Below, piece by piece: positions 25,901 through 61,875 of a stretch of 64,000 nucleotides of DNA. The position numbers and the translations under genes were made by a program. The number at the start of each line of letters is the position of its first letter. The first letter of the stretch is position 1. This DNA comes from Hirudo medicinalis (lineage: Eukaryota; Annelida; Clitellata; Hirudinida; Hirudinidae). The stretch lies in assembly GCA_011800805.1 (NCBI GenBank), contig MPNW01000054.1, positions 119,350 to 183,349 of the forward strand. Direction: 5' to 3'. Below the pieces are notes generated by a model, which saw nothing but the letters and a program-made list of their open reading frames with translations, was not told the DNA's origin and did no database searches.

Positions 25901-28900
25901 GATCGTTTTAATTTCTGCACGACATTTCCCGTGTGCGTTCCGTTTAAATAAACAAATGAAATAATTTAAAATAAATAAAATAATTGATGGCAAACCTTTG
26001 CCTCCCGGACACTTCAAATCTGGAGTTACTGTCGACCTGACGTCCAAGCACGGCGCATAAACAGATATGACAAGATTGCCTGAAAATTGTAAACAAATTA
26101 ATTCAAATTAAACATTGCATTCAATAGAATAGAATTCCTCTACATACAAAAAATATTTATAAAAATTGGCGAGACCAAGTTTTATTAAAAAAACAGATAA
26201 CACTCAATTAAAATTATTAATTTCAAATTCTAAGTTGTAAAAGCCACAAATCAGTTTTGATTTTTTTACCTGGAGCCTTGACAATCTTTCCTTCGACTTT
26301 GGCGGCCATGCTCAACGAATCCTTGCCTCCGTCGACGGCAATTCCGAGCTTCCTCATTGTGGTCGTCATAGCAACGCAGGCGTCGAAAAGCCGGGCATCT
26401 TCACCGTCAAGCTTGGCAGGCCACATCCAGTTACCACTGCACTTGACGTCCTGCGATCGAACGATCATAGCTTTGACCAATCAATCAAAAATCAATCAAC
26501 ATGACCAACTTGAAAGAGACTTAATGTCGATCTCATGGTATGTACAAGTATAAGATTCTTAGACCCTAACCCTAACCCCTTTTCAATAATGTGCTTTGTA
26601 ATCACCTTGAGACAGCCAACAGAAGCAAACACAAGATTGGTCAGCGACTCTCCAACGGTCATTCTGGCTCCACTCATCGAATCGACAAGACATTTGATTG
26701 GCTGCTCTCCAATGGCCGTAGCAGCTCCTTTCTGAAATGCCAAACAAGTTTGTTTAGTTTGCAAATTATAAAGTAGATCAACAGGTAAGGGATAGAAATA
26801 TTCCTCACGGTATCAAAGTGAGACAGAGCAATAACAGCCACATCAGCCAACGGGGTATGGAGGGGCCCGACGCACTGTTGCTGAGCAATCAAGCCTGACA
26901 CCGACCTATCCACCTGGCGAATGAATTAAAAAAAAAATTTATAAAAGGATGAAAAACCAAAAACAACGTTTTCATTATTCCACTGTAACTGTAATCGTGT
27001 CTGTAATTTAACGCTCGCTCTAAAACCTCAAATGCATGCCCCAAAAGTCAATATCAAATTAAACGAAGTAGGTTGTGATAATCGTGTGTGCGCATAGCAA
27101 AGTAAGATGATCAAAACAGGCAGCTGCATAAACAATCTCGTGCCAAAATTTAGAAGACGGACTCTGAATATGACACCCAACCTTATTGGTCAAGAACCTC
27201 TTACTGGCCACAGAGGGCAGTCTGAGGACATTGTTGAGGGCAGTCATCAGGGACAAATTATCTGGGAGAGTGATTTCCTTGTAGATTGCCAACTTCCTTT
27301 GCACGTTGAACACCTGATGTGAAAAGGTAATTTCCAGTGAAAAGAGGCCGATGAAACCCAAATCAGAAATTTAAAAATTCAAAACAACAATCGAAAGCAG
27401 TAGTGACCGTAAATAAATGCGATTCCCTTAATTGAGGTAATTTTAACATCGCTCAGCACACAAATATCACAATCATCATCATCATCTAACTTACTTTCTT
27501 TGGCACGCTGCCAAGGACAAGCTCAAGGTCGAGATCGATGGGAAGTTGTTGGGTGGGGGGATGTGACTTGACCTTCACGTTGGTTGGCTCTTTATCACCG
27601 CTGTTGTTACGATCTCTGTCGTCGATGAACTTCATCTAGATGGCAAAAAACACAAAAGAAAATCAGCATACGTTTATGTGTTCGTGGTTACGTACATGCA
27701 AAACCTAAAAAGCAGAACACAGTAATTATTAGTACTAATAACAAATTCTTTAAAAATAAAATTGAAACAATGACATCCAATCACAAAAACTTTCACCAAC
27801 TTTTCCATCGCCGGTGACTTCACCGACGAGAGAGAGCGGACATTTCTCTCTGTCTGCAAGTTTCTGGAGAGTCGCAACTCCGTCCTTCTTGACGAGGAGG
27901 GCGTTGCTCTCCTGGTACTCGGCAGTCCAAACTTCGAGGGCGCTCAGGGTCGGGTCACCGAGTTGAAAACCGGAGAGATTCACGACAGCACCCTGGGGGT
28001 AGACTAGTTCCTTGAGGACGTTACCTGAAGACGATGACTTTATTGTTATTGAATGACGATTCATAATAACAATGGGGTGAGATAGATTATGTCACAAATA
28101 AAATGGCAATTATAATAAAATGAATAACATTCACCCACCATTTCCGCCAGCTCCTTGATCGTGAATGCTGCAGATCGGGTTGAGGTCTTTCAGCTCCACG
28201 CATCCTCTCACGACCCTGTTCATTTTCTCTCCCATCTCAGCATCTCCCCTCTGCACAGCATTGAAGTCCAACTCCTCCCTCTGGTCGCCTTGGACGCTGA
28301 CCGATGAAGCGGAACCTCCTCCGACGCCGATCCTCAGGACGGGTCCGCCGACCTTAACGACCTGCATACCTGCCGAAATAAATGCAGCATAGAGTCAACT
28401 GCTCCTCTTCGATGCTCCTTCATTTCAATCCAAATTGCCATCATCACGTCGTTTAAATTTAGCCCCATCTTTTAATTCCTCTTCTTCTTCCGACTCACCA
28501 ACTTCAGGGTCGAACTTGTGCACGTGCTCTGCATCCATGGACCCAATGCCTCCGGTGAACATGATGGGCTTGATCCACTCCCTCCTCTCGCCAGCCACGT
28601 CGGACATACCGAACGACCTCGAGAAGCCTGCAATGATAGGCTCGCCGAACTTGTTTCCGTAGTCGGAGGCCCCGTTGCTTGCCTCGATTAAAATGTCGAG
28701 AGGCAGTGCAAGATTGCTCGGGTACTTGGCATCCGAATCCTCCCAGGGCAACTTGTATCCTGTGGGAAGGAAATTAGTTGTTATAATAATAATAATAATA
28801 ATGATGATGATGATGATAGTCACTAATATATTTAACCATCAACAATGACCACATTATTAATCATCACAATCACAATCAATTAACATTACCGCATTTCCTG

Positions 28901-31243
28901 ACCTTCACACAAAAAATCTAATCAAAATAATTATAATGCAAGATGAAAGTGATTAATTGTTGTCATCATCATCATCATCAACTCTACCTTTGATGTTGAG
29001 ATTCCCCACGCAATACCCAGCAGTTCCAGCAATTACTCTAGCTCCTCTGCCAGTAGCCTGAACATCCCTTATCCTACCACCTGTACCTGTAGTGGCACCT
29101 GGGAATGGGGCCACACCTGGAAAAATAAAAATGCTTTCCAGATCTTCCTTTACCAAGTTGTAAACAAACAGTGTTTTCTCTTAGCAACGAAGACAACTAC
29201 ATTACCATCGACACCTGCACGTCACTAAGCTTAGCACCCCCGAAGGAATGAACCATTATCAACCTGTGGGAAAGTTATGGGTCTCCGCCGTGAAGACGAT
29301 GTGCTTCTTGGAAGGGGGGTTCAGCACGAATGGAGAAGGCTCGACAACGAGCTTTGCACTCAAAGTCTGCAAAATGTGGCCTTCTATGGCACTGCAAAAC
29401 CAGGATAGGTTAATATAATGATCAAGCAACATGATATCAGTGGCTGTAATTACCAATTAGATCAGTTGAATAACAATCAGATGTTAATGAGGTCGATGCT
29501 AAAAACTACAAAAAATAAAACCAGCCTGCTATTGTCTGAGAACTTGATGACATTGTTGGGATTGGTTGATTCCTGGGTGTCCATGACCATCCTGAGCAGA
29601 GAGGATTTCTGCTCCTCGCCATCGATCACAAACTTTCCCCTGAAGAACCAGTGACGACAATGCTCGCTGTCGAAAACAGGATCGACGAATCAATAAAGTA
29701 CAAATGTGCAAATGTGTTGTGTAAGAAATCATTGGGTGAGGTGAGTGTTCAAGTTCACATTAACATAACATGAATATTAATTACACACATCTGTAAGTTA
29801 CTCAATGTGTTCAAGCATGTCAAAGAGCATTTTCGTCTTTACAATCACCAGTCGTTAACCTGACAAGGCATTCTAACTAAGCTGCTAATCTAAAATATTC
29901 ACACACTGAAATATGTATACTTATTACAGGCCACCAACAAGCCACAATTACAATTGTAAAAGCTAATTAGCATAACAATGCATAATGCCTAGACCACATA
30001 CAGAGGAACAGCTAATCATAATGGCACCTTTAATTAGTCACACTCAGGACATAAACACCTGTATTGATTAGCTCACCTGTTGGACTGAGCAAGATCAAAG
30101 CATTCCACGCTGGTAGGGTTCCTCATCAACTTCTTGACAAAAAGGTCAGTGTAAAAGTCAAGGTCCCAAGAGTCAAAAGAAATTCCTAAAAAATAGTGAT
30201 AAATGTCAATGCTGAAATAATGTTACATAACACATTACATCATTAAACACTTCAATTAATAACATCACTTCAAGCAATGACGGTCATAAACTTAAATATC
30301 GGTTTAAAGGCTGGAATGAAAACACGAATGATCACAACCGATAGTCTCACCCAAATCGTGGCTTGCATCTTCCAAAGCTGACCTGCCATGATTAATAAGG
30401 TCGACCTCAAAAACAGGTTCAGGTGAGATGTCAAGGTTGAAAGTGGTGATTGGCTTCTCATAGTGCATTTGGGTCATACGGTCATGTAGAGCAGCAATTA
30501 AATGCTTCTTGAGATCTTCAGGATGTGTTACTTCCTGAGCGGTGAGGATAGAGTACCGGAAGGATTTCTCGATTCTGGAAACCCTGGTCAGTCCAACAGA
30601 GGAACAAATGGAAACGGCATTGGTGGAAAAGGCGGTGCTAAAGTTTAGCCTGGATTGAAATTAAATGTCGTCTGCTTAGTAAAAACGTTTTGTAAATACT
30701 ATTTGTTTGTAAATTCTCACATGTGATATTCTTAGTTTCTAAAATCATAATTACTCAATAAAGAAGCATTTCCAGCAAAGCCAATTGAAATTTCAGTTTA
30801 TGACCATCATTACATGAAGTGATGTTATTAGTTTAGTATTATAGAAAGCACTCACGATAGTGTCTTACCTTGGACCTATCTCAATTACTCCAAACGGAGA
30901 GTCATTGCCATTCAAAAACGTGGCCTCAGAGACATCAGAGGTTGAAAATGGACATCTTAATATCCAGAGAAGAATCTCCTTTTCGTCCTTTGTCAGAGCT
31001 TAATTACAGACAGAATTGACGATTTAAGAAAATAATGTATAGGGCACATTTCTGAAAAATAGACGACTTCTTACCTTCTCCTTTCACCTCTACGTAAAAA
31101 CAAAGTTCACTTTTCACATCAACGCTGGAATTCAGTAAAGTTCCAGCCGCGTGCTCTGCGAATGTGCAGGCGATCTTCTTGCAAACTTTGTCTTTTTCTT
31201 CATCAGTCAAGCCAGGATACCTGTAGAATCTAATTATAGCCAT
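22970..31243 (-). CDS. PFAS: PFAS, phosphoribosylformylglycinamidine synthase (FGAM synthase)
   Basis: Cytosolic step 4 of de novo purine synthesis: FGAR + glutamine + ATP to FGAM. Exons (minus, 3' to 5'): 22970-23283, 23499-23798, 24088-24306, 24524-24731, 24995-25140, 25273-25395, 25638-25793, 25996-26079, 26270-26450, 26606-26731, 26809-26913, 27182-27313, 27495-27635, 27801-28024, 28139-28369, 28499-28759, 28988-29116, 29264-29391, 29526-29666, 30077-30185, 30351-30649, 30869-30998, 31075-31243. Total 4056 nt, 1351 residues, the usual size of the single-chain eukaryotic enzyme. Landmarks in order: [67 protein letters not shown], then the glutamine amidotransferase domain with FVGGFSYAD, the catalytic cysteine in GVCNGCQ and the His/Glu pair in MMPHPERG. 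All catalytic motifs are intact. One intron appears to use a GC donor at 29525-29524. Confidence 0.97.
25440..25512. repeat. Microsatellite (AAC)n/(AAT)n
   Basis: aacaacaac then aataataat in a PFAS intron. Shorter AAT/ATC runs also occur near 24915, 25150-25260, 28785 and 28965. Confidence 0.85.
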
Positions 31244-32110
31244 TCTCTTTCTCTGCTTCTTGAACCGTTATCACCACCTTTATATCAAGATGCATACAAA
31301 GGCACAAAAGACCCAACAAATAATGACACAAATGCCTGGACAGAACTAACGACAATTCAAACCCTAAAACATGTGCAAGCCAAGATAAATGAATATTTTT
31401 TTTACACAAAATTTATCTGGATAAAGATTTACTAAGCTATACCTGTATTGTATTGTAATTATTTAGGTTACAAATCATTTAAAGTGTGAAATGTTTTAAT
31501 TAAAAATTATGTTTAATTTAATTTTAAAACACTTTTATATCTAAAATTATTTGTTATAATCAAACAGAATTAATTAAAAAAGTAATAGTATTTTTTTATT
31601 AGTACTTTAATAATTGTATTCACAAACATGAAATTAATTGTTATTTTTAAGTATTTACGGTTTTGAAATAAAACTAAAATTAAGTAAAAAACATTTCTAT
31701 AGTCTGCATTTAAAACATGCAATTGTATCTTCGGTGAAATCGAAATAAACATTGCGGACGGGGCGGGAGTTGCTCTAAATTGCCTCTTCTATAATATTAG
31801 ATTTTTTGAGTTACCGAATCACTGGATACCACCAAGGTTTATTTTATAGAGTAGAATTTGGAATGGCAATTTTGTTATTGCATGTATTTGACAAGTCGAT
31901 CTTAAGATTTGGTCGAATTTGGATCATTTGTTTACTGTGCAGAAACATGTGTTTTTACTAATTTCTTTAATTTTATTTGGAATCATAAATTGAAAAGACA
32001 TCTAGAGCAATAACTTAATATTTGTGTTCCTTAGCTACTTCGCACTTGGCTGATACTTGTCACTTGTGCCATTCACAACTAACATTTTTAAAATATATTT
32101 TAATTAGGCG
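31244..32110. promoter_or_regulatory. Divergent promoter region between PFAS and the Q/S/K-rich gene
   Basis: Head-to-head spacer of 867 bp between ATGs on opposite strands, so it should hold both promoters. It is AT-rich with no clear TATA box or CpG-rich core. A GC-richer island around 31756-31768 is the only compositional break. Confidence 0.4.
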
Positions 32111-40774: not shown

Positions 40775-43355
40775 CTACAAATCTAGAACGATATTTTCAT
40801 TGATAGCATTGATGTTAACATGATCGGAACTTTCAAAAGGTGTTGGGTTGTCTGCCATAGATGGCAAACTAGAGAGATGAGGAGCATCGCATCGAAGACA
40901 GTTGTCGGTGTCACCGATTCCATCGATCATTGAAAGCTGGCTGGCAACGTTGTTGGTATGGCCTTTAGAATCATGGGCAATGCTCTCATGCTTGCTGAGT
41001 TGGTGCCTTCTGGCATAGGCCTTCTTACAAATCTGACACACATGTGGCTTCTCGCCTGTGTGCGATCTCTTGTGTCGGACGAGAGAGCTCGACCTGGAAA
41101 AACTGATGGCGCAGATATCGCATATGTACGGTCTCTCTCCAGAATGAGATCGTTTGTGGACAATGAGAGCTCCAGAAGTCTTGTAGGACTTATTGCACTG
41201 ATCGCAGACATGCTCTTTGATTTTTTTTAGGCTGCTAGAAATGCTTGTGCTTAAACTACTATCTCCAATGCCAGTGGTGCTATCACTTTTCTGATGGTAG
41301 AGTTCTGTATGTTTCAAGAGTTTAGACTTGGATCTGAATTCTATTCCACACCAAGGGCATGGCAGGAATTTTTTTACGTCATGAGATGAAATGTGATCTT
41401 TCAGGCTCTCTTTATTTCCAAACTCTGAGGAACACAAGTAGCATCTGTTAATATCAAATGAAAATTTATTTAGCATTTGATTTACTTTTTTTTTTTTATA
41501 AAATTACATTCCAACCTGGTGGATTTAGCAATTGTTTTGATATCACAAGCTCATAGGTTCAGTCAGTGGTAAGCAAAATACCTAAATGATGGATCGTCGA
41601 GATGGAGTTTTTGATGTCTCTGCAGGTGGTTGAGCCTGGAAAAAGACCGGCCACAGATGTCGCAGTAGAAGGGTTTTTCTCCTGTGTGCACCTTGGAATG
41701 CCTGACCATGTGGGCATGTCTGGTGAATCGAGGCCACAGATGTCACACATGTGCAATCGTTCTCCAGAGTGCATCATTTTGTGAATGTTCAGGTCACTGT
41801 TCGTCACGTACGACTTGTGACATTGGTCACATTGATAGGGTTTCCTGCCTGTTTTAGGTCAGAAGTTTTAAAATGCAGTTAAGTACTCTCATGAAATATC
41901 TTTAACTGTTTTTGCTTCTTGATGTAGCCCTAGATCTCTAATTGGCTGGTCATTACCCACCTGTATGAATGATCATGTGACGAGACAGATGATCTGACTT
42001 GTAGAATCTTTTGTCACACGCATTGCAAGAAAATGGCCTGTGTCCAGTGTGGATCAAGGAGTGTCTGAGGAGGTGACAAACACGACTGAATCTCTTCCCA
42101 CACACTTTGCATTCCTTTTGCATTGCCTGAAAAGGGCAATGAAGATTGCAAAATTGTTGATAATAGTTCGTGGTACATTACTCTTCAAACTGCTGATTGT
42201 TGGAAATAATTGGATACATCATGAAGATAATCCCTGAGCATTAGTATAATATTTTATATTAAACTGTCAGACAGTTAGGATAACAAATCAAGAGGATAAA
42301 GATGGATGGATTAATAGATAAAAATGAATTCTTCTGAAGTTCATATGAGAAACTCAAGGAATTATGATAAATTTAATTCAGATTCACCTACGATCACCTG
42401 GCAAACGTCAACAATCAATTTCGATTTTCAATAACAAAAGATAACCTTGATGTCTCTATGAATCTGCACCTTGCTTTTGAGGTCAGAATTGGTGAACCCT
42501 TTTGAGAACTCCTCATGTTGTCGAGGCTCATCTGAATGAATGGTCTTATGAAGGCTCAGCTGATTGGCCAGATTAAATGTCTTATTGCATACTTTACAGG
42601 TGTAGGGCTTCTTGCCTGAAATGCAAAAATCACGAGCATTTAAAAGAAAGAAAAAGCTAATGAACGTTTTTTTCATTATGAATATTCAATCCAATCTAGA
42701 AACTAACCTAATAACAATATAACATCTGGCAAGAAAACCTCTCAACAAAAGCAAAACTGAAAGCCCAACATACTGATGTGGGTTAACAAGAGCTAAGACT
42801 AATGATAGTACATCAGAGTTTCTATTAGAAACTCAACCCAACCCCAATAAGAAACTAATTGATTTTGACCTATAACTTTAGTCCACCAATCAACTTACCT
42901 GAATGGATCCCAACGTGTCTGCAGAGTAGGCTGTAATTGCTGAAAGATCTGGTACATTTCGGGCAAAAATATTTTCTGGAGGCTATGCATTTCCGCTCAT
43001 TAGGCACCAAGGCACAACCGATGGTCGTTGCAGATCCATCGCTTTGGGGGGTAAGGGGAGCCCTTTCGACATCCCCAGCGAAGGAGGGCGCTTTCCTATG
43101 GCAGGAGGATAGGGTAAAATCTTTTGATGGAGAGGCAAGGCTCAACTTTTGTTTGAGGCAAGCAATCTCTTCCTGTAGGGCACATACTTGTCTCTGTAAG
43201 GTTTTGACCTCCTGCTTCATTCTCATCTTCTCAGTATTTCCCCGTCTTTTTGCTTTCTTTCTTTCTGAAGAGCAAATAAGAGAGCAGTAGACTTGCAATT
43301 GCACAGCATAATTCTGACATTTGAATGCTATTTTAGTTTCCTTACCATTGGTCAT
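40775..43355 (-). CDS. C2H2 zinc-finger protein with N-terminal coiled coil; one-base frameshift in this copy
   Basis: Probable nuclear DNA-binding transcription factor. Exons (5' to 3' on minus): 43346-43355 (ATG), 42899-43264, 42446-42615, 41961-42126, 41582-41848, 40775-41444. About 549 residues if one missing base is allowed. A basic, heptad-like coiled coil comes first (KQEVKTLQRQVCALQEEIAC). About twelve C2H2 fingers follow, e.g. YFCPKCTRSF, YTCKVCNKTF, CKVCGKRF, YQCDQCHKSY, FYCDICGRSFSR, HVCDQCNKSY and YICDICAISF, many with H-S/T-G-E-(R/K)-P linkers. One finger (EEFSKGFTNSDL) has lost its cysteines. In the exon 41582-41848 the reading frame breaks at 41729-41735: CDICG needs six bases before the finger Phe and has five. 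Fingers before and after are intact and the next splice phase fits only if one base is restored. Tail to tail with the TTLL10-like gene, 203 bp apart. Confidence 0.88.
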
Positions 43356-43509
43356 CAATATTAATATTGCAATTTTTGTTGTTTATATGCAGTGATGCCT
43401 CCAAGGGAGGTTTTGAGGGTTCTAACTCCCCAAAATTGTTCAATAACAAAAAAATAATTTTATTAACTGGTTTTAATTATCAACAAGTTAACAATGAATA
43501 TTTTAATGA

Positions 43510-45432: not shown

Positions 45433-46148
45433 TTTAAATGCTAATTTACGAATCAATTTACGAAACTTTAGGCAAAACAAAAGTGCTGCCGCTAATTACA
45501 TGATAAAAAATTATTAATAAATATACGCATCATAAATAAGAAAAAACTAGTGTCCGAAATCATCAACAAAACACCAGGCAAGCTACGAAATCGTCTAAAG
45601 GCCTTTTAAGGTAAGATGCAAGGTATTACTTTAAAATAAAATTGATATTTTTATATTTACATGTTGTTCTTAAATTTATTAAAAAAAATAATATATAAAT
45701 AAAAATGAGCGATGAAATTATTGAAATTATTACAATTGCAGATGTTGTATTGACAATTGCACGCGATCATATCGAACACATCGGTTGATTTCCTTACCTT
45801 GCATAAATTAAACATTAATTCAGGAGCAACGTTTGCGTGTAACTAAGGATACACGTCAACTTGGGCCGTAAGGAGTCTTAGCAACCGAGCATGTGTCAGC
45901 AAGTACACCAATTTCATTTCGATCCCATTCCATTGGCATTCAATATGACTTCTGAAGAAATTGTGTTCTAGAGTTGACCCCGATGCGATTTCTCTCGATT
46001 GCCATACGTAAACATCGAAATTAATCACTACTCGACACTCATGTGGTTGAAGTAAATCTTGTTACATAACAGAACTTCATTTAAACTGACCAAACCGCTA
46101 CGAAGTCCATTATCGTCAGAGCGTTTCAATAAAAGGTCGAATTAAAAG
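45433..46148. promoter_or_regulatory. Divergent spacer between the small minus-strand gene and the CFAP97-like gene
   Basis: About 0.7 kb head-to-head region expected to hold both promoters. AT-rich, no clear core promoter motif. Confidence 0.35.
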
Positions 46149-47661
46149 ATGAGTCAAAAAAGCAAAGAACAAAGAACGAAATCCAGATCAAGTTCAAGAT
46201 CTGAGTCGAGAAAAAGTGGATCAACCAAAAGGTCAAGAACTAGATCTAGCAGCAGAAGCAGGTCAAGGAGCAAGTCTAGGTCAACATCAAGATCGTCGAG
46301 AGTACGAACTAGGTCACGGAGCAGAAGCAGATCAAGGTCGCCCGTGAGCCACTCTGCCTCGAGTTCGAGGAGCAGATCCAGGTCTGACTCGAGATCAAGA
46401 AGTCCTTCGAGATCCTCATCGAGAGGAAGGTTTGAAAGGATCGATTGTTAAAATTATCTTAAACAATAACAATGGCGATTGTAATGTTGATGCCAAAATT
46501 TATTCAATTTACACGCGCGATACTTTAATATGAAATATGAGCTAGGTCGATCATTGTTGCGCAAAACGTCATTTGTGCATTTAAATTGAATCTCATATTC
46601 AACTAATTTTCAGTCAGAGAAGCAAGTCTGTGGACAGTAGCATAAAAGCAAGCACACATAAAGAGCAACATAGAAAAGGTGAAGACAACAGAAATCATCT
46701 AGCGTCTGGCTCTGAGCTGTCAGCGAATTCTAGTGCTGCGAGATGGAGGAAAAGAGAGCCAAAATACGAACCAAGATACCCAAGGTACGGCCTGGATCCG
46801 ATTAATGTTCAAGGAGTAAGCATTATTTTGTCTATAAAATATCTTTAAAATAAACTAATTTCCTAAGTTTCATAATATTTGCTGCATAATTCTTTCATTA
46901 TGAATAACAGATAAGAAGAGACACCACTAACTACCTTCTGCATAGAAGAAAGGTATTTAGGCATTAACCATAATTAGATTGCTTCATGCTTGTGAAGATG
47001 TTAGTTCATCATTAAAGATTGCTCAAGTGAAGTCTGTGGTGGATAACAGACCTCCCAAAATCTATCCTCATGTCTACTGCAACATGAAAAAGTTGAAAGT
47101 ATGCTCATAAACATTCCACATTTTTGTTAAAAAATTAGTAGATTTACACTAAAATACCAAACGATGAGAATGTTATCGTTTGTAACTAACACTTATTTAA
47201 TTTTTTTAGTATGCATTTTTAATATGAATTTTTAAGATTAAACCAGTTATTTCGTTGTTGCAAAGTATTGAGGCCAAAAAGTGTTATTACTCAGAGTTTA
47301 ACAAAATGTCACCGACGCGAATTCACGTACCCTTTAGAAACAACAGGAAGAGCAAGCTTTAATTGAAAGAAACAATCAGTTACTTTTGTCCAAGTTGGTG
47401 GTTGCGATGACGACAACAAGAATTGACAACATGCCCCAGGAACGGGATTCACATTTGTAATTTGTTTCTTTATCTGAAGTTGTTTTTATACTCTTTATTC
47501 AAATTAAACACAAACATTTAATCTTGACATTTAGGATCAACAGACGACGTCAGCAACAGAGATTAGAAGAGTTGAGACAATTCTCTAGTAACAGCAGAAG
47601 CCAGTCACAAAAAAATGCTTCCAGAAAGGAAAGCAATAAGAAAGAAGCGATGACTTGTTGA
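46149..47661 (+). CDS. CFAP97/hemingway-domain protein with RS-rich N-terminus
   Basis: Exons: 46149-46429, 46614-46815, 46911-46952, 47018-47098, 47338-47456, 47535-47661; 852 nt, 283 residues, all phases correct. The first exon is an arginine-serine repeat (TRSRSRSRSRSPVSHS and similar) of about 85 residues. From the second exon on comes the CFAP97 domain: NVQGIRRDTTNYLLHRRK, then KSVVDNRPPKIYPHVYCN, then MKKLKKQQEEQALIERNNQL. This matches the family signature 'A.avVDn.PP.tY.Hl..nlKKlkleeer...IerDN..Ll.km'. The protein ends with a basic stretch (NRRRQQRLEELRQFSSNS). Family members (Drosophila hemingway, vertebrate CFAP97 and CFAP97D1) act in cilia and sperm flagella. The RS block alone would suggest a splicing factor, but there is no RRM. 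Its stop is 243 bp from the start of the next plus-strand gene. Confidence 0.87.
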
Positions 47662-47903: not shown

Positions 47904-50813
47904 ATGTCACACTGCAATATAAAATTCGATAACACGTTGAACTTTCTGCCGAGTATCCAGCCTAAGAAGCCTCGAACCAGAAGTGTTAGCAGAACAAAAA
48001 CTCCTATTTCTACCAGCCGTTCCACAAGGAGGGGCTACTTAACTCCTCAAGAGAAAAAAGAAATGGAGATAGAAAATAACCAGATTGAAAGCGAAATCGA
48101 AAAGTGGGAAAAAATACGGAAAAATAAATTTATGAGAAACTGTCGCAAGTTGAAAGTCGAAAGCATGGCTCCGGCAGGCTTCGATTTGTTACTGGAAGAC
48201 ATTATGAGATTCGTCATCAGCGTAAAGCCCGGTCCTAAGGATATGATTCGTTGCATATCTTCTTTCTTGGATAAAAAGCTGGAGGAAAACGTAATGAAAC
48301 GATATGACCTGCGCGAAAACATGTATTATGATGGTAATATTAATTTCAGAGTTTAGTTCAAAGCGATCGATTGACTAAAATAGTTTTTTGTTTGTTTTCT
48401 AGATGACGATGACGATGGTAAGATATCTTCTATTGATTTTTGAATGATTTTAGATATTTTTATATCTCTTGCTGAACAATTCCCACTGCCACACCTGTTA
48501 GGCTTCTGCACTTTGGATGAAACTGCCTTGTTCTTGGAAAAGTCGGATATTGATCCTGCTCCTAGAGATATTTACCACATGGAGTACCAGGGGAAAATCA
48601 TACCTCCGTGGAACGAGAAACTCAGTGATTAATTTGAACGTTCAATTAATTAGTAGCTAACGTCCTTCAAGTTTAAACAATTTCGACCCTTTTCTTTACC
48701 AACCCTAGAACCGAAATATCGGGACGAGGCTGGATCATTCTTGGAAAGATCAAAATTTGATCCTGCTCCGATTGATTCCTGTCATCCTCGCTACCAGGGA
48801 GTTCTCCGACCTCCGTGGAACGAGAAACTCGGTAGAATTACCAAAGACATCTTCAAATTATAGCTCAAAGTATATTCTATTTTCTTTCGTTAAGGCGATG
48901 TTGACGAAACCACGACAATGCTGGAGGAATCAAAAATTGACGTCCCTCCAATCACTGAGTTTCAGACAGGATATGAAAAGGGAATCAAACCATCCGTGGT
49001 GATGGTGACAGGTATATTGTTAATTAATTATGTCAACACGATGGGGGTGTTGAAAAAGTTTGACAATTCTTAAATAGGTGGAGGAGGGAGTTTATGATTT
49101 TTTGACGTAAACGGTGTTATTATTTTATGATAAAAACCTAAACTGTACAGATGGCTATATAAAGTTATTGTTAGTAATTGTTAGTTATTTTATAAACAGT
49201 TACAAACTATAAAACTCGTGTTTACTCAACTCGTGTTTTATCAACTGTCTGGTTTACGGCATTTGCGTTTTGTCGAACGTTGGATTGACAGCAGCTAACA
49301 AGCAGGCTTCCCTTCTGATGAATACCTTCTGTTGAGTACCATGTTGTGTTGGCAGATCACGACTGGATTGTAGCATCAAGGCAAAAATTCATTCCATCGG
49401 TTTATTCAAAAAGATGGTCTAGGCAAACCTGAAGCTGTAACTTATTCTGGTGCAACTTACACAGCTATCAGGTCAGGCAAGCCTATGCTTAAGGACTGAT
49501 TATGAAAGGCTACTTGAATTGGAAGAATTCGACCTTATTTGATAAAAAAAGGATGAAAGCAATAAGTTGGTCAAACCTATTCTTATTATGACTGGTTGGT
49601 GGACCGAATGAAAATCCAGGATATCAAAACGTTATTATTATTATTATTATTATATTATTGTTTGACAAATTTAAAGTGGCGTAAGTCCTAAAGGACTTCA
49701 AGGCCACTGAACAAATGCGTCTTGAGTCTTTTTCTAAAGCTTTCAACAGTCGCAGCGGAAGTGACCTCTGGGGGAAGAGTATTCCATATTCTTGGGCCAG
49801 CAATCGCGAATCCTCTATCTCCAACGCTCTTCAGTCTACCCGCCGGCACGATGAGTTGAGAAGATGATGATGATCTCAATCTTTTTCGAGCCGGGATTTC
49901 TGATTTATTGATGTGGCAATTCATTTTCTGAAGCACAACCTCGATGCATTGCCCATTGTAACAAATGCACATGGTAGGTGTGCATTCAATCTAGTAGAAA
50001 GAAGGATGGCTCCTTTGAGTCGAGAACTGGAACTGTCAGATCTAATTTTACCTCACGAGTATTTTGGAAGTCACCTTGATTCACAAGATCGATCAATTCG
50101 GAGGCGTCATTGGATGGGCAACGGCCCCCCTGAATGCTAATGCCCCACCCATCCTGAATTTTGGCTGCCAAACGACAGAGAGTTGTTGGCAATTATTGAG
50201 CCCAAAGAAAATTCTGTTATTTTAATGTACTGAATTGGATGAAGATTAATTCGACTTAATTCGAAATTATTACAATAGAAGAACTTTTGACTTCCCCTTG
50301 GGAAAATGATAGAAGCTGACATAATAAAAAAAATTGACAATAATATTCAGTTTAACAATTATTTATTTTCAAAATAAAAGTCACAAATTCAAAGTGTTAC
50401 ATGATACAATTTAAAATTGTAAATAAAAAAAAATTGGGGATTGTCAATTTGTTTACATAATTTTATTAGGGGTGGTCTTTGGAAGTTTGACAGTTGTTGA
50501 CAAGAGGGAGGGGGTCAAAAATTACCTCAAATTACCTTGTTGGCATAATTAATGGACGACCCCTGAGGCTTTCAATCCAATTTAAAAGGGTGTTTTTTTT
50601 TTCTTTTATCATGCAGATCCGTGTTTAGCGGATGAAAATTCACCGGTAATGGATACATCAGAAATTGATCCTCCTCCGATCGATACCTGTCACTTGGGTT
50701 ATGAGAAAGGCAAAGCAACGGCAAAGACAAAATCTAGTTCCGCATGCTTCAAGAAGGACACCAAGAAGACATCTTCCAAGTCAAGAAGTCAAGTTCTCCC
50801 AGTTGTCCTATGA
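47904..50813 (+). CDS. RIIa-like docking-domain protein with four 'PPID' modules (tandem copy 1)
   Basis: Exons: 47904-48333, 48403-48417, 48502-48624, 48709-48831, 48895-49011, 50617-50813; all junctions phase 1, about 334 residues. A basic, serine-rich N-terminus and a charged helix (EIEKWEKIRKNKFMRNCRKL) precede a segment FDLLLEDIMRFVISVKPGPK...SSFLDKKL, which aligns with the RIIa dimerisation/docking fold of SPA17/CABYR/PKA-RII but is divergent. A 15-bp exon adds an acidic DDDDD run. Four exons of similar length then each encode one module: EKSDIDPAPRDIYHMEYQG, ERSKFDPAPIDSCHPRYQG, EESKIDVPPITEFQTGYEKG, TSEIDPPPIDTCHLGYEKG. The last exon runs on into a K/S-rich tail. A minus-strand LINE tail sits in the last intron. 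The module family is unknown to me. The neighbourhood suggests a flagellar role; that is inference. Confidence 0.68.
49012..50616 (+). other. 1.6-kb intron of RIIa copy 1
   Basis: Bounded by GTATAT and CATGCAG, much longer than the gene's other introns (64-85 bp). It contains the LINE tail at 49625-49940, which explains part of the expansion. No exon seen. Confidence 0.6.
49625..49940 (-). mobile_element. 5'-truncated non-LTR retrotransposon (LINE) with ATT tail
   Basis: The minus strand encodes ARKRLRSSSSSQLIVPAGRL, then GDRGFAIAGPRIWNTLPPEV, then FRKRLKTHLF, the stereotyped C-terminus of CR1/jockey-type reverse transcriptases. After the stop comes an (AAT)n run (plus strand 49632-49655), a typical simple-repeat 3' tail. 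Only the end of ORF2 remains, so it is inactive. It is antisense within the last intron of the first RIIa-module gene. Confidence 0.82.
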
Positions 50814-53440
50814 AACTTAACTAAAATTATAAAAAGTCTTTAATCAAATATTCTTAGTTGGTTGATAAGTGTCATTAAAATTGATGTTCTGCAGAAAGTT
50901 CTCTAATCCTAAGTTCACGTTTGTGCACATATACTTTTTAATAAACGCAAATAAAAACAGCAAATCTTATTAATTCTAACTTAATGTTCTATGGCGAAAC
51001 ATTCGTGGTGACGTAAAAATTGCTAGTTTTAATCGATGTGAACTTTTAATCAGCAAATGGTTGGTGATTTCATTAATTTCGTTTTTTTGGAGCCGAGCTA
51101 GGCCATTTGTCTACATTTGGATGGACTCTTCTAGGTTTCACAAACATTTATAAAATGGTCGCTGCACATAGATTAATTGCAAGGCAGATACTTGATCTTC
51201 CTTTTCAGCCATTTTCAATAAGTTATGAGAGCCGGTGTGGTTCATTTTTAACCCAGAATCTTTGAACTTTTAAAGGTAGTTTAATTTGTGCGTGTTAAAG
51301 TATAAGAAATCCAAATGCTTAGCAAAGATAGCCATATGGTATGATATGATTTCCATTCGGCCATTCTCTGGTCGGTTAAACATAGCCGTCATACAAACCA
51401 GCTTCTATTGCAGATTTTCTTCATAATGTTCATGCTCTGCAACAGCAGTTCCAACCAATTGTAACCAATGCTTATTTTAACTTATCGTTTGCGATGTTTA
51501 TTTATTTCGATAGATTAAATTATTTTGCAGGCACAGAAGCGCCTTTTAGAAGAATACATAGAATGTCTCAAAAATTCAAACCGTGAGAACATTCGATTGG
51601 CTTCATCGATTCCAACGAAGCCGAAAAAAGAAACCAAACGAAAACCTACAGAAGTTAAAAAAGAATATAAAAGAAAATATTTTGGTAAGAAGGAATTGGC
51701 GATAACAAAAACTAGGGAGAGAATGGGAAAAATAAGGCCTGTGTTTGTGGAACTCATCACGGAGCTGGAGAGAGCCATCTTGTGTCACAGACCAGAAAAT
51801 ATCAAGTCATTCTCTGCTGAATACTTAGAGTGCAAATTAACAAAGAGAGCTCTTTTCGAAGAAGCCTACGATGAAGATTTCGACCGTGATTAGTATTATT
51901 ATTGATGATGATGGAAGCGATTGCAATTGCACATCGATGTTCACTTAGTTTACAATGGTTACTCCAGGAACACAATTTGTGGGGAGGGGCAACGGCGCCC
52001 ATGAGTGGTTGTTGCTCCCCCTGGAAAAAGATGAAATGACGTTCCTGGATTAATCGACTTATTACAATTAAGATTGAAATTTTAAAAATGCTGTAAGAGG
52101 ACATCTGTAAATCTCATTAAATTAATGAAAATCCGAATTCTTGATATAGAATGGATTCATTTGAACTTGCAAATCTTAAAAATACTATTAATTTAATCTC
52201 AGTTTCATTCATTTCATCATTCCAGCTATGATATTCTGATCGTTATACTGGTAGTCTGCGAATGAAACATATCACTTACTATTTTTAGCATCAGAATGCT
52301 ATCAAGAAGAAGAAGAGGAAATTCCAGAACAGGAGAAAAAACACGTTAAGCCATGTGTTAGGTGTTCCTTCGAATCAGAATTGCGGACACTTTTCCGCTA
52401 CGAAATGACAGAACTCACTGGAAGAGAACCAGGAACCACAGAATCATATGAAGCAGGTAAATCATTTCCCTAGAGGTTCCACTGTTGATGACCAATTCAA
52501 GGCATGATTATTCTTCTGTCTCACGATGTAGCTCGGTGTTTATCGAATGTTGATAAAGCCATGGCAATGGAGGAAGAATCCAAAGTCGACGCCCCACCCA
52601 TCGACGCATTTCATGTAGGATATGAAAAGGAGGTCGAACCGTGTATGGCCGAAGGTAAATTGTTCCAGCCTCAAAGGCTAATTCAAATTTGTTGCGAATA
52701 AATAAATAATGATTATTTTTTGCCTTCATGACGTCGATAAACTTAGAGGATGAAAGTTCACCGGTAATGGAATCGTCAGAAATTGATCCTCCTCCGACTG
52801 ATCCATCGCACATGGGCTATGAGAAAGGTACACCATGAAAGCAAAAGTCTGGCCTGCGTAATAATTACCATAACTTTCTTAATTAAAAAGGAACGGAAAA
52901 GAAGGAAAGTACCAAGTCAAACAAAACGCCAACAACAGTTCAGCGCAGTTCCACAAGTCTCAAGGAAGATGCCAAGAAGACATCTTCCGAGTCAGGAAGT
53001 CAAGTCCTCCCAATCGCCACATGAAACTTAACCAAAGTTATAAAATAATTTTCATCAATTATATTTCTTTGTCGGATTAGCATGTTATATCATTAAAATT
53101 GAAGCTCTGTAGGAGATTTTCCATTTATAACAGCTCCCATTTGTGTGCATATCTCGAATTTTTTTTTAGAGTGAATAGCAAATAAAAACGGCAAATCTTA
53201 TTAATACTAACTTAATGTTATGTGGCGAAACATTCGCGTTGCCTAAAAATTGATGAAGTTGTGATCAATGTCAACTTTTAATCAGCGAATATTTGGTGAT
53301 TTCAATAATTTCATTTCTCTGGAATCCAGCCAGGCCAACCAGCTATGTTTAACTGCATCCTTTCACGATTCGCGAACATTTGAAAATGATCGCTACTGAT
53401 TGTTCAAAAAAAGGCAGATGTTCGGGTTTTTCAGCTTTCA
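50617..53440 (+). repeat. Tandem duplication of last exons and 3' flank (50617-51260 vs 52747-53440)
   Basis: The last module, K/S tail and several hundred bp of 3' flank recur about 2.1-2.2 kb apart. Shared non-coding blocks include GCAAATCTTATTAAT, CTAACTTAATGTT, GGCGAAACATTCG and AACTTTTAATCAGC in the same order (about 50960-51060 and 53190-53290). Non-coding similarity shows the duplication is fairly recent rather than ancient exon shuffling. Confidence 0.8.
51531..53024 (+). CDS. RIIa docking-domain protein with two 'PPID' modules (tandem copy 2; first exon not located)
   Basis: Exons: 51531-51885, 52289-52456, 52532-52654, 52747-52827, 52891-53024; phase 1 at all junctions after the first exon, which starts in phase 0 and needs an upstream start exon I could not place. 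A lysine-rich linker leads to FVELITELERAILCHRPENI followed by KSFSAEYLECKL, a clear RIIa dimerisation/docking signature (L..L.RE.L..qP.nI..F.A.Y.E). The next exon is acidic and holds CVRC. Two modules follow: EESKVDAPPIDAFHVGYEKE and SSEIDPPPTDPSHMGYEKG. The tail (KEDAKKTSSESGSQVLP) is nearly that of copy 1 (KKDTKKTSSKSRSQVLP). RIIa domains dock on A-kinase-anchor or radial-spoke-type helices, typically in sperm flagella. A 63-bp intron before the tail is absent from copy 1. Confidence 0.68.
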
Positions 53441-54637
53441 TTAATAATGAAAACAATAACATTAATTGTTGGTGTGATTATGCATGCCAGTTAAAATATT
53501 GACCCCCTACTTTGTCATCAAATAAAATGAAAAATGTGGATGCAGGAAAAGTAATGATAACCAACCGAAAAAATATTAAAGGCATACGTATTTGTAATGT
53601 AATTACTCAAAAAGTTACCGTGCTAAACATTTTCTATAATATATCATAATAACGATGATAATAATGTTTAAAAAAAATAACGCTGGGAATTCAAAATATT
53701 TTTTAATGACAAGGTAAATCATTTTTAAATAAAGGCCAATATTTTCAAATCAACAATTAAATCCAATGAATGAGATCTGGGAACATGAAAAACTGAAATA
53801 CAAAACAAGGAAAAGATAGTTTTTTGAGGAGCTCATTACGAGCTTGGAGAGGAAATTCTGATTCGTAGACCAGAAACATCAGGTACTTTTCTGCTCGCCA
53901 ACCCTCAATCCAAATTAACCAGTATTGTTGGGCTTGAAAAGGTCTTCAGTGTTGGTTTTTCATTTAAAAAAATTATTTACGAAATATGGTTTGAAATACA
54001 TTAAAAATTTCATAATTTCATAATTTTTGTATCACTCCACCATCCGGTCAGCTGGAAAGGTCACCATGACAACGGAATGATGGATGCATTTCTGCATTTT
54101 AAATAAATGCCAACCAATCAGAAATGTCACAGCGAATATTCTTCTCTTCATCTCTTGTAAATTTAATCCCGACTACCTCTGAGATCAGAAAATTCATTTT
54201 GATTTTTTTCTGCGTTTGAAGTTTTGCAAAGCGTGAAAAATATTTCATCAAAAATTAAAATATCGCGAGATGACGAGAGTCATAGAAGATGTATTTTTAA
54301 ATCATAGATTTATATTTTCTCATGATAAATATGAAAGAATTCATTTTTGCCATCAATTTGAAAAGACATTCAATAAATAATGTTTTAAAAAATAAATTTC
54401 TTAATAAGGCTTTTCGTTAGACTTTAATATCCTAATAATTTGTCTCTAAATTTGCTTAATGGCTACTTTAAGGTCGATGTTGATATAATTCATTCATCAC
54501 CGTGGTAACCATTTGTGAGACACGTGACAAAACACCAAACTCCAATTACAGTAAAGGTAGCGACATTGACGCTTTGTGAACTTGGGAAAGGCCGTAAATC
54601 ATCTGCTCTCTCGTCATCGTTATCTCACCAAATCCTG
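53025..54637. other. Spacer downstream of the tandem array
   Basis: Contains the duplicated 3' flank (to about 53440) and the dead RIIa copy listed separately. Otherwise AT-rich with no supported gene. Confidence 0.45.
53819..53933 (+). pseudogene. Decayed third copy of the RIIa exon
   Basis: Plus-strand sequence encodes FEELITSLERKF then a stop, and in another frame ILIRRPETSG and NPQSKLT. It parallels copy 2 (FVELITELERAIL-CHRPENI and the ECKLTK region) at the nucleotide level: GAGGAGCTCATTACGAGCTT here against GTGGAACTCATCACGGAGCT in copy 2. Frameshift and stop break the domain, and no flanking module exon is visible. It indicates the array once had at least three units. Confidence 0.62.
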
Positions 54638-56190: not shown

Positions 56191-59100
56191 TCATCCTGCG
56201 TAGTTGATGTGATTCGAACTGTCCGTTATGATTGACATGATGGTTTCATTCATTTCGGCCATCTTCACTCCATTCAAGGTGAGGGTGGCGTTGTTGCCGA
56301 GTACTGTCCCGATATTCACCCTGTTGTGAGGGTGCTTGCCCCTTCTCCTGCCCCCGATGCAAGACCACGCTCGTTGTTTGAAATCCTCGACCAATCCGCA
56401 GTAGATGAAGCCGGTACTACAGGTAGCCACTATCGTCATGCAGACGCCAAACAACTCCGCCCTTCTGAGGTTCGAGCCCTCTTGGCAAGTAGCGATGTGG
56501 TTCGTCCTTTGTGGGTTGAAGGTTATGACCATGGCCACACAAAGAACTGGCAACCAGCAGAGGAACCTGATGAGAGCAGTTGTGATAACGACCATAGTCA
56601 GCTCTTTCTTTCGTTTGGCATCGTTCTCCAGGTTCTGAATGATCTCGTAGTGGTGAGCTTGGCTCTGCGAGCGTGTCATGCCCCCTCTGTGATTGGTCAC
56701 GGTGACGGATGACGTAAGATCCGACTGATCACGTCTCCACACAAGGCCGGCGAAGAACAGGATGATGATTGTCGGGATGATAAAGGCACATGTCAGAAAT
56801 ATGATCTTAAATGAAAAGAATAAAAATCATATTCAGATATTTAATATTACAATTTGAATTTGCACAAGATTTTTGTGCAATGATCACGCGAGGTAGCATG
56901 AGAATTTTACATTTATGCAATTGAATTTTGGTTTATGCTTTTTTTGTTTTCTATAAGATGATCTCAAGAAATGAGTAAATTACAATGGCAAATCGGGAAA
57001 GTGCGAAGACGATGCGAGGAGATCTTCTCATCACTGAAGAACTCCAGAGTGGCACCGGCCGTTTTGAGATTATTTGAAAAAGAGAAAATTAAACATCTCA
57101 AAATATCTCGAGATTAAGCGATGCTGTCAAGACAGCCACGATACTGGGAGGTGTCTGGTTACTTGCGAAGCAGAAATTTTAAATGAAAAATAAAACATCT
57201 TCTAGCGAAAAAATGTCTGAAGACATTTGAATTGACGATGAAAAATTAGATTAAGAATTAAACAGGGCAAGGCAAATATTCTCCCATGATGGCCTCCTAC
57301 TAACCTCTTTTGGTCTTATTTAATCCCAGGTTTATTTAACATACTGCATGTGTGTGTTCCTATAGCCACGAGCCTAGAGCCCTCCCACAGATTAGATTAA
57401 CCGAATCCTGATAAGCTCCCAAGGTCGCGCCGGACCATTTGTTATACCAGAGGGCATTGTACCTTCGCGGGAGGAGAATTTACCCCTTTCGGGCAGACGA
57501 TGGATGCCAGGTTTATAAACAGACTTACTAGAAGGTGTTATGTAATCATAAATTAGATAACAGATTGTCAGTTCAAGAGACTTCATTAAGCATCATAACA
57601 TTTATCACGACATATCCAAATTTGGAGGCCACTATAGTTACCATTCTCTTCTGGGTTAATGGCATAACAGCAATTCATTGCTATTCATCAACAACAATGT
57701 AGATATTCATCACCATCATCATCATCATAATCATCATCATCATCATCGTCGTCACCATCATCATCACCACCATCATCATCATCATAACAAACATCACCAT
57801 CATTACCACCACATTGGCATCATTTATCGAAGGAGATATCGCCTCACAATAACTCGTGAACCTCGTCTCCTATTAGTGTTCATTCAACATCAGTCGGTAA
57901 CACGAGCCAGGTTCCCGTAGACTCTTTAATAGATAAATTCACAAACAAGAAGCGCCACCGGAGCCTCCATGCAAGCGGTGTTCGACTAATCTGAGACTCG
58001 CATCTCCACGGAGAACTCACGTCTCTCTCGTGTCCGTGTGGGTTGTTGTTCCGTGAAACCTTGTTCACAGATCGGTATGTTTGTTTGGATTAGATGTCCG
58101 AGATACGTGGGAGTATTCGTATCAACGTTCATCTGGGATTCATGATGATCATGCTGCTTCTCTCTCTCCGTCTTGGCGAAGTCATCATCATCATCATCAT
58201 CGTCATCATCGTCGTCGTAGTCGTCACCACCTTGGGGATCTATTAAAGATCCAAGTTACTTTCCAATGATTTCCAACCTGTAGCTGCTAAAGATGGTAAA
58301 GTGTTGACGAATCCCCATAAAATAGAGGCTTACCTCGCCTGCCGTTTTGAAACCGAATACAAGTTAAAACGGAGATAAGATTCAGGCCGCGACTTTCTTA
58401 ATCATACCGGTCCCATAATTCATGCCATCGGTCACAGGCGGTGTCTTATTTATTAGATAACACGGTGATAAAGAAGGGAATTATCATCGCCTACCGCGGA
58501 GTTGAGGCCGCTGCTTCATTTGAAGCTTTTGGTGTTTTAATCGTTTTTAATTAAAAGTAACCTTTTCATTTAAGCCCGACCGAGATAAGAGTGAACTCGC
58601 ACGGTACTGTAACGCATTCTTAAATGGTTTTAGGGTGGACCTAGGTCAACCTAACGATGGCTGCCAACATTGTCCTTACATCTTGTTGATTGCGAACATA
58701 TTAATAATGCATTAATTAATAACCAATGAACAGCATTACTAACAACGTACTAAAATGAATAATGTTTGATCGGAAAGGGTTGCGTTCCCTCAGTAATGTC
58801 GAGTTCGCAATGAGCGCCCATGGGAATAAGCGCTATATGAATGGTTGACAAAAGCGCTTGTAACGGTATACATACGGCGCTAAATAAATAAATAAATAAA
58901 CTACAAATAAGATAATGATTGGCCAAAAAATAAATAAAACAAGAGCGACAATATGATAATGAAGCTTCCATTGTTTACCCAAAGGGTTTTCATCTCCTCA
59001 GTCGATGGCGCCTGTTTGCCATCTCCTCCCCAAGTAACATCATCCATGTGGCAGAGGAAGTACTTCCAGTGCGCATAGGTCGGGTTTCCGTCATGGTTGG

Positions 59101-60380
59101 ATGATTGGATGAGGAGTCTGACGTGTGACAAGATGAATGCAATCCACACCACTAGGCAGAGAATACCGGCGTTGCACAGGGTCAATGACCTTGACAATTG
59201 AATAATCAATTAGGTTTATTTAAATATCACTCTGTGAATATTTAAGCGCAGCTCACTGATTTGATTGGATGAGCTTTAAGAAAAATTGGACTCAATAAAT
59301 TAACTAATCACAAAATTAAGTCAAGTAAACTCGGAACGTTTTGATCTTAAAATAGTCAAAAATAAAACCTTGACTTTCCCTTCCTAGAATCTCTGCCATT
59401 GCACCAAAGACACGAAAATCTGAAGAGACAAGCCACCACCAGAGTGTACATGGTGACGTATACAGTAACGAAGATGACGTAGTAGGCGCTGCGACACGTG
59501 GTTGGCTGGATTTGAAATGATGGAGAACCGTCTTCAACGGCATAGCTCAGCAGGGTGACGGGCACCAAGGAGAATACGTAGATGACGTCGGCAAACGATA
59601 CATTTAGCAGCATGAGGTTTTGGCCTGGGTGAGAAAAGCAGATTTTTTTTGTAAAATTGAAGTCGGATAAATTATCGAGAGCAAAATGTAAACAAATCAA
59701 AGCGCATGCATGCGTGTGGTTCCGTCTTGATAAGAAAAAAATCAATTTCGCCTTGAAATGTGATCTCTTTCTACAAGGTCTGTTCAGATGATCCAGCAGT
59801 TTCTTAGAAGTTGGCGCATACGTGGCCAAGTAAATATATGCAAAGATAATTTTTTTTCAAATACATACGGTTAAAATTTTAATTTAAACGAATCAATTTA
59901 TTATAATTCTAAGACCTTTAAAAAGATTCAAAACGCACCCGTTCTAAGTCTCCTTGACGACACGAACGAGACAAAAACAAAAGCGTTCCCTATGAGCGAG
60001 ATGAGTCCGAAAATGATGAGCAGCGTCGGGACCAGATATTGGTCGCTCTCAGAGTCGAATATGTACCAACACTTCTCCTTGGGGAAGAAGAAATCTGACG
60101 AATTCCTGTCCATCTGGAAGATTTTCGCCGGATTAAAGTCGCGGTGATGGTAGCGATGGAGGAACGAGTTATCGCTGCCGATGGGTATGTCCTCGGGATC
60201 CAGGACTGGGGGTAGTTTGGACTGATCTAGGTTCATGATGGCATAAACGCGGTCAGGGTCCAACTTCAACGAAGGAACGGTCTTGAAGGTCGTGCTGGAT
60301 TTGAGAGGAGATTCGGTCTTGAAGCGATTGGATGGAAACATTCGGACGGCATCTTCCGGAGAGTAATCGTCATCTGCCAT
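56191..60380 (-). CDS. Atypical class A (rhodopsin-like) GPCR, peptide-receptor type
   Basis: Seven-helix plasma-membrane receptor, perhaps related to allatostatin-A/galanin receptors. Exons (5' to 3'): 59939-60380 (ATG), 59414-59624, 58979-59189, 56191-56805; 1479 nt, 492 residues, phases consistent. A long about 120-residue N-terminus has NSS. TM1 holds the conserved Asn (LISLIGNAFVF), TM2 the Asp (NVSFADVIYVF), TM3 starts with the disulphide Cys (CRSAYYVIFVTVYVTMYTLV). TM6 has CWLP. TM3 ends CLFRFS where SLDRF is expected, so the Asp of the DRY motif is Phe. TM7 has CSTGFIYCGL where N-P-x-x-Y is expected, so NP is TG. The second intracellular loop is very short in this model (FRFSSLTLCNAG), so a small phase-2 exon between 59190 and 59413 may be missing. 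Cysteines in extracellular loop 2 are present. Confidence 0.88.
57696..57800. repeat. Microsatellite (ATC/ACC)n
   Basis: About 100 bp of catcatcat/caccat triplets in the long GPCR intron. The poly-His reading frame is an artefact. A second ATC run lies at 58175-58222 in the same intron. Confidence 0.9.
58755..58905 (+). mobile_element. Retroposon tail with GCGCTATAT motif and (TAAA)n end
   Basis: Contains AAGCGCTATATGAATGGTTG, AGCGCTTG and GGCGCTAAATAAATAAATAA, ending in (AAAT)n. The GCGCTATATAAAT-type tail also occurs at 63144-63156 in an element with polymerase III boxes, so I call both members or relatives of one SINE/LINE tail family. It lies in the GPCR intron. Confidence 0.5.
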
Positions 60381-61875
60381 CCTCGTGTTTTAAGATCCTC
60401 AAAATGTCTTGTGATGCTGACGATGAAAGTATTACACTTCTTTTCACCTTGTGTAGATGCAGGGGACTAGCGTGGCCTGATAGTGATGCCGATGGTTATT
60501 GCCGAGATCTTTGTCCGATAAGGATTATGCTTCTTTTGTTGCCGATGCTAACCAGACTCATTATCGGAGCATAAAGATATCTGTAAAAGATGTCAAGAAT
60601 GAAATGCTACTTGATGTTTTATTGAAATAAAAGTCGTTCTGACGAAGCAGTAGGCAGTCACCGCAAGTCTTACCGCTACTCGTTGCTCTCCATCACCATC
60701 ATCATCATCATCATCATCATCGTCATCATTATCAATTATCATCACCATCATCGTCATCCCCTCTTCAACAACTACAAAGCGCCAATAAAACGATTGACGA
60801 CAACAACAACAAACTCCGGCCAATAACAGCGTCATTAATGGCGGTCAATAAACGCACCGTAAAACTAAATCCATGCCAGCGATTGGTTAGGTGCACCTAG
60901 GAAGAAGCTCATAAAACGGCCATCAAAGACATCAACGCAGAAGAACATAAAAGGCTTCAATCCTGTGATCCATGGTTCTTGTTTATCGCTAGCACCACAT
61001 ATCCCCTTCCATCTGCACAATCATTATCATCGTCGTCGTCTTCAGGGGTCAATCCAAAATGAAGAAAAGCCGTAACGGAGATGAACCAAAACGTAGATAC
61101 GACAGAAAGAAAGATTCAATTTTGATTAGGACAACAATTGTTTTATGGACAAAACGAGTTGAGTTATCGATCCAGGGTAGGGTTGGAGTTAACAGGGGCT
61201 TTCGTTTTTTGAGAATTTCGGACAATTCAAAAAAGATTCGATTGTTGATAAATAAAAAGGACGTCGTCGTTATTTCTTGGAAATTTACTCACACAACTGC
61301 CGAAATGATTCCACTAGCAAATTTCTTACATTTTTCACATGGATGCCATTTGCAGAATTCGATCACATTTCCTTTCTAAATTTTCCTACAGGATGTCACT
61401 GGACTTTAAATCGATAGCTTCCGTTTATAAGTCAGGAAGTAAGTCTCCAATGGCAGAGTCAAAAGGATTTTCGAAGCTCCAGATCAGAGAAACCATCATG
61501 GAATTGCTTTTTAAAACTAGATACGATTTCTTGAGCACACAAACACAGAAAGGTAGTCTCAGCTTCTTGGTTATATTTGTCACATAGTGCAATGAAAGAA
61601 TCAGCAGCTTGATAACTTATTTTCAATCAGTGTCAATTTCTGATGAAAAGCTTTCACCTTGTACAAATCACAGAAGTAGTTTCAGTTTAACTCCGTATTC
61701 GAAAATTGAAATCATTGAGATGCATGGTTAGATCTCCTGAAAAGTCTAATTTCCAGAGCCATTCGACACCATTCTTGTTTAAGAATATTTCAATCTCACT
61801 GCGAATCTAAAAAAATTGAGACATGATTTTCCCACAGCTAAGCCACTGAAGTATGCTAAGGTAGGTCTGGAAACT
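60381..61875. other. Upstream flank of the GPCR; no supported gene
   Basis: Includes an ATC microsatellite at about 60686-60755. Open frames at 61059-61379 and 61339-61587 have no family, splice or composition support. The GPCR promoter should lie in the left part. Confidence 0.4.

Follow-up and report, generated by a model that had tools for sequence, protein, structure and literature searches.

A window of 64,000 nucleotides from the leech Hirudo medicinalis (contig MPNW01000054.1 of assembly GCA_011800805.1, positions 119,350 to 183,349, forward strand) carries two adjoining genes, here called A and B, that lie head to tail on the plus strand. All coordinates are positions in this window, which is one piece of the genome that we searched (133.0 Mb, 1557 contigs). 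Exon borders were picked by hand, and frame and splice sites were verified. Gene A (47904-50813) has six exons and encodes 334 residues, and gene B (~51531-53024) has five exons. In these predicted models each of the nine introns has GT-AG borders and lies in phase 1. The order of parts is common to both genes: a dimerization/docking (D/D) domain, an acidic stretch, modules and a Lys/Ser-rich tail with SQVLP near its end (Table 1). The acidic stretch is a microexon of 15 bases in A and an exon of 168 bases in B. AATAAA occurs 126 and 136 bases past the stop of A and 156 bases past the stop of B. Translation of B may start at an in-frame ATG at 51723, or the exon from 51531 may be spliced to a start further upstream. 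The spliced models bear out the layout proposed in the first-pass annotation, two tandem genes that each join a docking-domain exon to an acidic stretch.

Table 1. Exons of genes A and B, duplicated flank and decayed exon (positions in the window).
Feature	Positions	Strand	Description
A exon 1	47904..48333	+	basic/Ser-rich N-terminus, then divergent RIIa-like D/D (tentative; ~residues 88-126); ends in phase 1
A exon 2	48403..48417	+	predicted acidic microexon (poly-Asp), phase 1-1; GT-AG, frame kept
A exon 3	48502..48624	+	module A1, phase 1-1; leave-one-out E 1.7e-8
A exon 4	48709..48831	+	module A2, phase 1-1; leave-one-out E 2.3e-9; nearest paralogue of A1
A exon 5	48895..49011	+	module A3, phase 1-1; leave-one-out E 4e-10; counterpart of B1
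A exon 6	50617..50813	+	module A4, Lys/Ser-rich tail, stop; leave-one-out E 2.5e-13; counterpart of B2
B first recognized coding exon	51531..51885	+	RIIa-like D/D; Pfam-matched part 51750-51827
B exon 2	52289..52456	+	acidic (EEEEE) linker, phase 1-1
B exon 3	52532..52654	+	module B1, phase 1-1; leave-one-out E 4.4e-10
B exon 4	52747..52827	+	module B2, phase 1-1; leave-one-out E 2e-12
B exon 5	52891..53024	+	Lys/Ser-rich tail and stop, homologous to A tail
3' end and flank of A	50736..51163	+	tandem copy at 52947-53394
Second copy of A 3' end and flank	52947..53394	+	tandem copy of 50736-51163
Decayed third copy of B docking exon	53823..53895	+	73 bases, matches 51744-51818

The modules form a family of six related copies, four in A and two in B, each with about 25 alignable positions. 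When a profile is built from five of the modules, whichever they are, the one left out is recovered at E 1.7e-8 to 2.5e-13 from 2055 pieces of open reading frames (ORFs) in the window. Outside the six, the top-ranking real piece reaches E 0.47 and the top-ranking shuffled one 0.15, which excludes chance, and the profile scan of the same pieces found no seventh module. Five columns are invariant (D1, S10, D13, P16 and Y24), D18 and H21 are present in five of the six modules, and most copies read D-E-x4-[LM]-[ED]-x-S-x-[IVF]-D-x-[AP]-P-x-D-x-x-H-x-x-Y. Thus the six modules, four plus two and carried by phase-1 exons, are confirmed as first described, with two corrections. The printed consensus is idealized, with exact IDxPPID in one module and YEKG in three; and five modules occupy internal phase 1-1 exons of their own, whereas A4 is encoded in the last exon together with the tail and the stop. 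Symmetric phase-1 exons allow the number of modules to change without damage to the frame, and module number is exactly what differs between the paralogues.

The docking domain of B is of a kind that occurs in cilia and sperm tails. It matches Pfam RIIa (PF02197) at 16 bits (E 0.0097), and at 18.8 bits in a genome-wide RIIa scan; these scores lie below the curated cut-off of 22.4 bits, so B is RIIa-like and no member of the Pfam family. Its D/D score is 23.4 bits, against a maximum of 5.0 in 1000 shuffles. The best PDB sequence for the domain is human Sp17 (E 0.025), from the human respiratory axoneme. Structure models of both docking regions were built from alignments with SPA17 rows included, and the Foldseek list for the B model is led by D/D structures of PKA-RII, SPA17 and DPY-30. 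The R2D2 signature is described as Ile, Leu or Val in place of the second proline in the loop between helices I and II (PMC8339350). In the alignment B shows this feature: its P-E-N-I puts a hydrophobic residue at the position of the second loop proline of RI. B also reads YL and lacks the glycine, which in A is present (PAGF) together with FL. Together these results support a SPA17-like D/D domain in B.

In A the domain is more divergent. Its D/D score of 7.3 bits is reached by none of 1000 shuffles (maximum 5.5), and the region is in register with the D/D alignment. Nine of 12 Foldseek matches for the A model are D/D structures of PKA-RII or RSP11, and RSP11 chain 7jtk_U is among the matches of both docking models. 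Where B has the R2D2 feature, the loop of A reads PGPKDM with a two-residue insertion. An RIIa docking domain had been proposed for both genes; the proposal is supported for B, while for A a divergent RIIa-like D/D domain is tentative.

Docking proteins and their axonemal partners are encoded elsewhere in the genome. Eight RIIa matches, five of them over the cut-off, were labeled by eye as two each of PKA-RII, PKA-RI and SPA17-like, besides gene B and one chance match. A search with a ropporin query yielded three ropporin-like exons on contig C299 (E 5.5e-8 to 4.9e-4) and one D/D exon on contig C141 (E 0.0016). RSPH3 is found at two places (contigs C150 and C27), and CFAP91 on contig C39. The second SPA17-like gene (L018, G000:C112:25937-29008) has a frameshift in its docking exon and is either a pseudogene or an assembly error.

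We compared A and B with known D/D proteins, a superfamily for which 18 human members are listed (PMC8339350). SPA17 resembles them in being the best PDB match of B and in the phase-1 intron after the D/D exon, seen by eye in the SPA17-like gene of this genome. It differs in having IQ motifs (from Pfam of its matches) and a DPAxxGxxxEDRFYNN element and in lacking the modules. Pfam gave no IQ family in A or B. In the stretch of B that comes after the D/D domain, the SPA17 element scores no higher than in shuffles (63 of 500 reach its score), and A gave no score. CABYR has a long tail behind its D/D domain, and we know of no exon-borne module of the A/B kind in it. Compared by description only, CABYR is alike in its AKAP-binding R2D2 domain (PMC11276731) and different in that it is described as having been added in higher animals (PMC8339350); no CABYR appears among the matches of the protein-database searches. 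ROPN1L/RSP11 and RSP7, of which RSP7 and RSP11 are reported to form a heterodimer in the radial spoke (PMC12399478), combine an RIIa domain with another part. Their C-terminal parts are different, however, and the ropporin-like exons of the leech lie elsewhere in the genome.

We therefore give a probability of about one in two to the reading that A and B are both functional and code, as tandem paralogues, for small D/D proteins related to, but divergent from, the R2D2 proteins (SPA17, CABYR, ropporin), in which docking in cilia or the sperm tail is combined with a motif array. Two results weigh against it: Pfam finds no match in the docking domain of A, and the Foldseek matches for A are weak, at E 4.1 or more. 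It is also conceivable, at clearly lower odds, that A and B are real D/D genes with a non-ciliary role, either as signaling anchors like PKA-R or in an unrelated lineage-specific function. The D/D fold is reported to serve PKA-R and DPY-30 proteins too (PMC8339350), DPY-30 structures are among the Foldseek matches of B, and no RFX-type site with at most one mismatch lies directly 5' of either gene, the nearest ones being downstream of B. The respiratory-axoneme origin of the Sp17 match argues the other way, as does the lack of any cAMP-binding or DPY-30 domain by Pfam in A or B. The two nearest sites (54060-54073 and 54496-54509, plus strand) are RFX/X-box-like with one mismatch each. The window holds six such sites against 2.25 expected, a number reached by 3 of 100 shuffles, and they were not used as evidence.

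Searches for relatives of the module matched it to no known family. None of the six modules has a Pfam match at E up to 10, and against PDB sequences they gave two matches that we took as chance, a phage lysin (E 0.75) and a ribosomal protein (E 1.4). About 5.8 billion proteins were searched by a method that needs shared 5-residue words. The A/B alignment (5648 candidates scored) and the module part of A (77 candidates scored) gave no match in this database at E up to 10. A control query, the SPA17-like protein of the same genome, gave 18 matches among 33 candidates. The three that are named come from Magallana gigas, Paralvinella palmiformis and Bulinus truncatus, indicating that lophotrochozoan proteins are in the database. 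Provided that their species are included, any close relatives of the two genes would probably have turned up; distant ones may have been missed. The same three matches make a lophotrochozoan origin plausible. Neither protein nor DNA searches of the genome found further module copies beyond this locus (best candidates scored: 5, 7, 1 and 2). The strings IDPPPID, SEIDPPP and DPPPIDT were not found in open-licence PMC papers, and among the papers listed in topic searches the titles and abstract openings show no protein that combines docking domain and module in this way. The claim that the module has no named family agrees with Pfam, PDB sequences and the protein database. Whole A gave two homeobox matches against PDB (E 1.5 and 2) and whole B none. 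Pfam matches below cut-off were taken as chance: IS66 transposase (0.26) in A, and a GDH motif (0.18) and SOTI (0.22) in B.

The module could instead be a known domain or motif, perhaps common to other axonemal proteins, that has diverged too far to be recognized, leaving only the combination as new; we think this rather unlikely. Its shortness, the need for 5-residue words and the numbers of candidates scored leave room for such a relative, and the negative Pfam result for all six modules, with only the two chance-level PDB matches, speaks against one, as does the lack of a clear match to the post-D/D element of SPA17. Derivation of the module from that element was not supported in 11 comparisons of 500 shuffles each. 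The best were A1 (reached by 8 of 500 shuffles), A2 (12) and the sequence labeled P0001 (17), with 27-500 for the others. By hhalign the element and the modules align at E 0.06 over 6 columns, and a remote link may exist.

The two genes arose by duplication. The 3' end and flank of A match those of B at 73% over 450 columns. In the flank past the stops, 274 of 346 aligned bases are identical, with 28 gap positions, in the best local alignment; so strong a match could reflect a fairly recent duplication or partial conversion of the flank. The closest module pairs over 25 aligned residues are A4-B2 (18 identical), A3-B1 (14) and A1-A2 (14), a pairing that points to tandem duplication of a gene that already had two modules or more. 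Since then, judging from these pairs, either A has gained modules or B has lost them. Over the 98 codons of A3-B1 and A4-B2 pooled, dN is 0.286 and dS 0.682. The bootstrap interval of pN/pS for these codons is 0.38-0.76, with a value below 1 in 999 of 1000 replicates. For A1-A2 (41 codons), dN is 0.456 and dS 1.027. Together the alignments and codon comparisons identify A and B as tandem duplicates whose duplicated exons are under purifying selection.

Downstream of B lies a decayed docking exon, which by its sequence is what remains of a further gene copy. It scores 44, compared with 36 for the best of 500 shuffles and 30 for the best of 48 other window stretches. Such decay might extend to the whole locus, which would then be a duplicated and at least partly pseudogenized remnant whose modules no longer matter. 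We consider this improbable: besides the third docking exon, the degenerate docking domain of A and the unsettled start codon in the first exon of B would fit it, but frames and splice sites are intact across 11 exons, poly(A) signals are present, and pN/pS stays below 1 in nearly all bootstraps. Further downstream, at ~55410 (plus strand), a KFDPVPR string sits roughly where a module of the third gene might have been; at E of at least 3.9 it is at chance level, and it is not claimed as one.

Binding of calcium or another metal through the conserved D13, D18 and H21, as might be imagined from CABYR, which is reported to bind calcium (PMC11276731), is very improbable, since the modules have no Pfam match and such binding would account neither for the prolines nor for the invariant Ser and Tyr.

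For A and B as ciliary or sperm-tail docking proteins, we infer the docking partner, the tissue and the function of the module as follows. The D/D domains would form dimers, either among themselves or with a further R2D2 protein. In cilia or sperm flagella the dimer would then bind an amphipathic helix such as that of RSPH3, CFAP91 or an AKAP. As adaptors, the proteins would present two (B) or four (A) module copies behind the acidic linker. Each module, with its prolines and acidic residues, may be a linear motif, so that a single partner would be bound several times over. Its invariant S-x-x-D follows the casein kinase 2 consensus, and phosphorylation at such a casein kinase 2-like site could regulate binding. 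Known complexes offer parallels. In mammalian axonemes, RIIa or DPY30 domains are described as docking on RSPH3 and CFAP91, and the AK8-EFCAB10 heterodimer brings its payload to the spoke on RSPH3 (PMC11779644). That payload, in contrast, is an enzyme without a motif array, and the pair is of the R1D2 type (PMC8339350). Pairing matters for SPA17, whose binding to AKAP18 is reported as weak alone and nanomolar with ROPN1L (PMC8339350).

More tentatively, and with less confidence than in ciliary docking as such, we propose that A and B are lineage-restricted axonemal adaptors, in which the D/D domain ties an undescribed motif array, variable in copy number and regulated by phosphorylation, to radial spokes, with exon gain and loss tuning the number of motifs. 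If so, the D/D superfamily would have gained a payload-array class, invented within the animals. With one motif encoded by each phase-1 exon, such a member would illustrate how binding sites can be added to ciliary or sperm scaffolds by simple means, and the tandem pair, with its two and four modules, would provide a natural comparison. The gene pair may also reveal an unrecognized short motif in the axoneme.

The surroundings of the two genes were inspected by eye. Just upstream of A (46146-47661, plus strand) lies a small, apparently multi-exon gene with Arg/Ser repeats. Within the long intron of A, an ORF on the minus strand (49691-49990) ends in a stretch of the VGDRGFAIAGPRIWNTLPPEV type and resembles the C-terminus of a LINE reverse transcriptase; it has no Pfam match at E 0.01. 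Further neighboring genes extend, by eye, over 22973-31267 (minus), 16346-17659 (plus), 40778-43382 (minus) and 56194-60389 (minus). Pfam matches were obtained for five of the ten window ORFs scanned, namely GATase_5, a nuclear-receptor ligand domain, C2H2 zinc fingers and a rhodopsin-type receptor. The receptor match occurs in two of these ORFs, in one of them below its cut-off, and by eye the GATase_5 neighbor resembles FGAM-synthetase.
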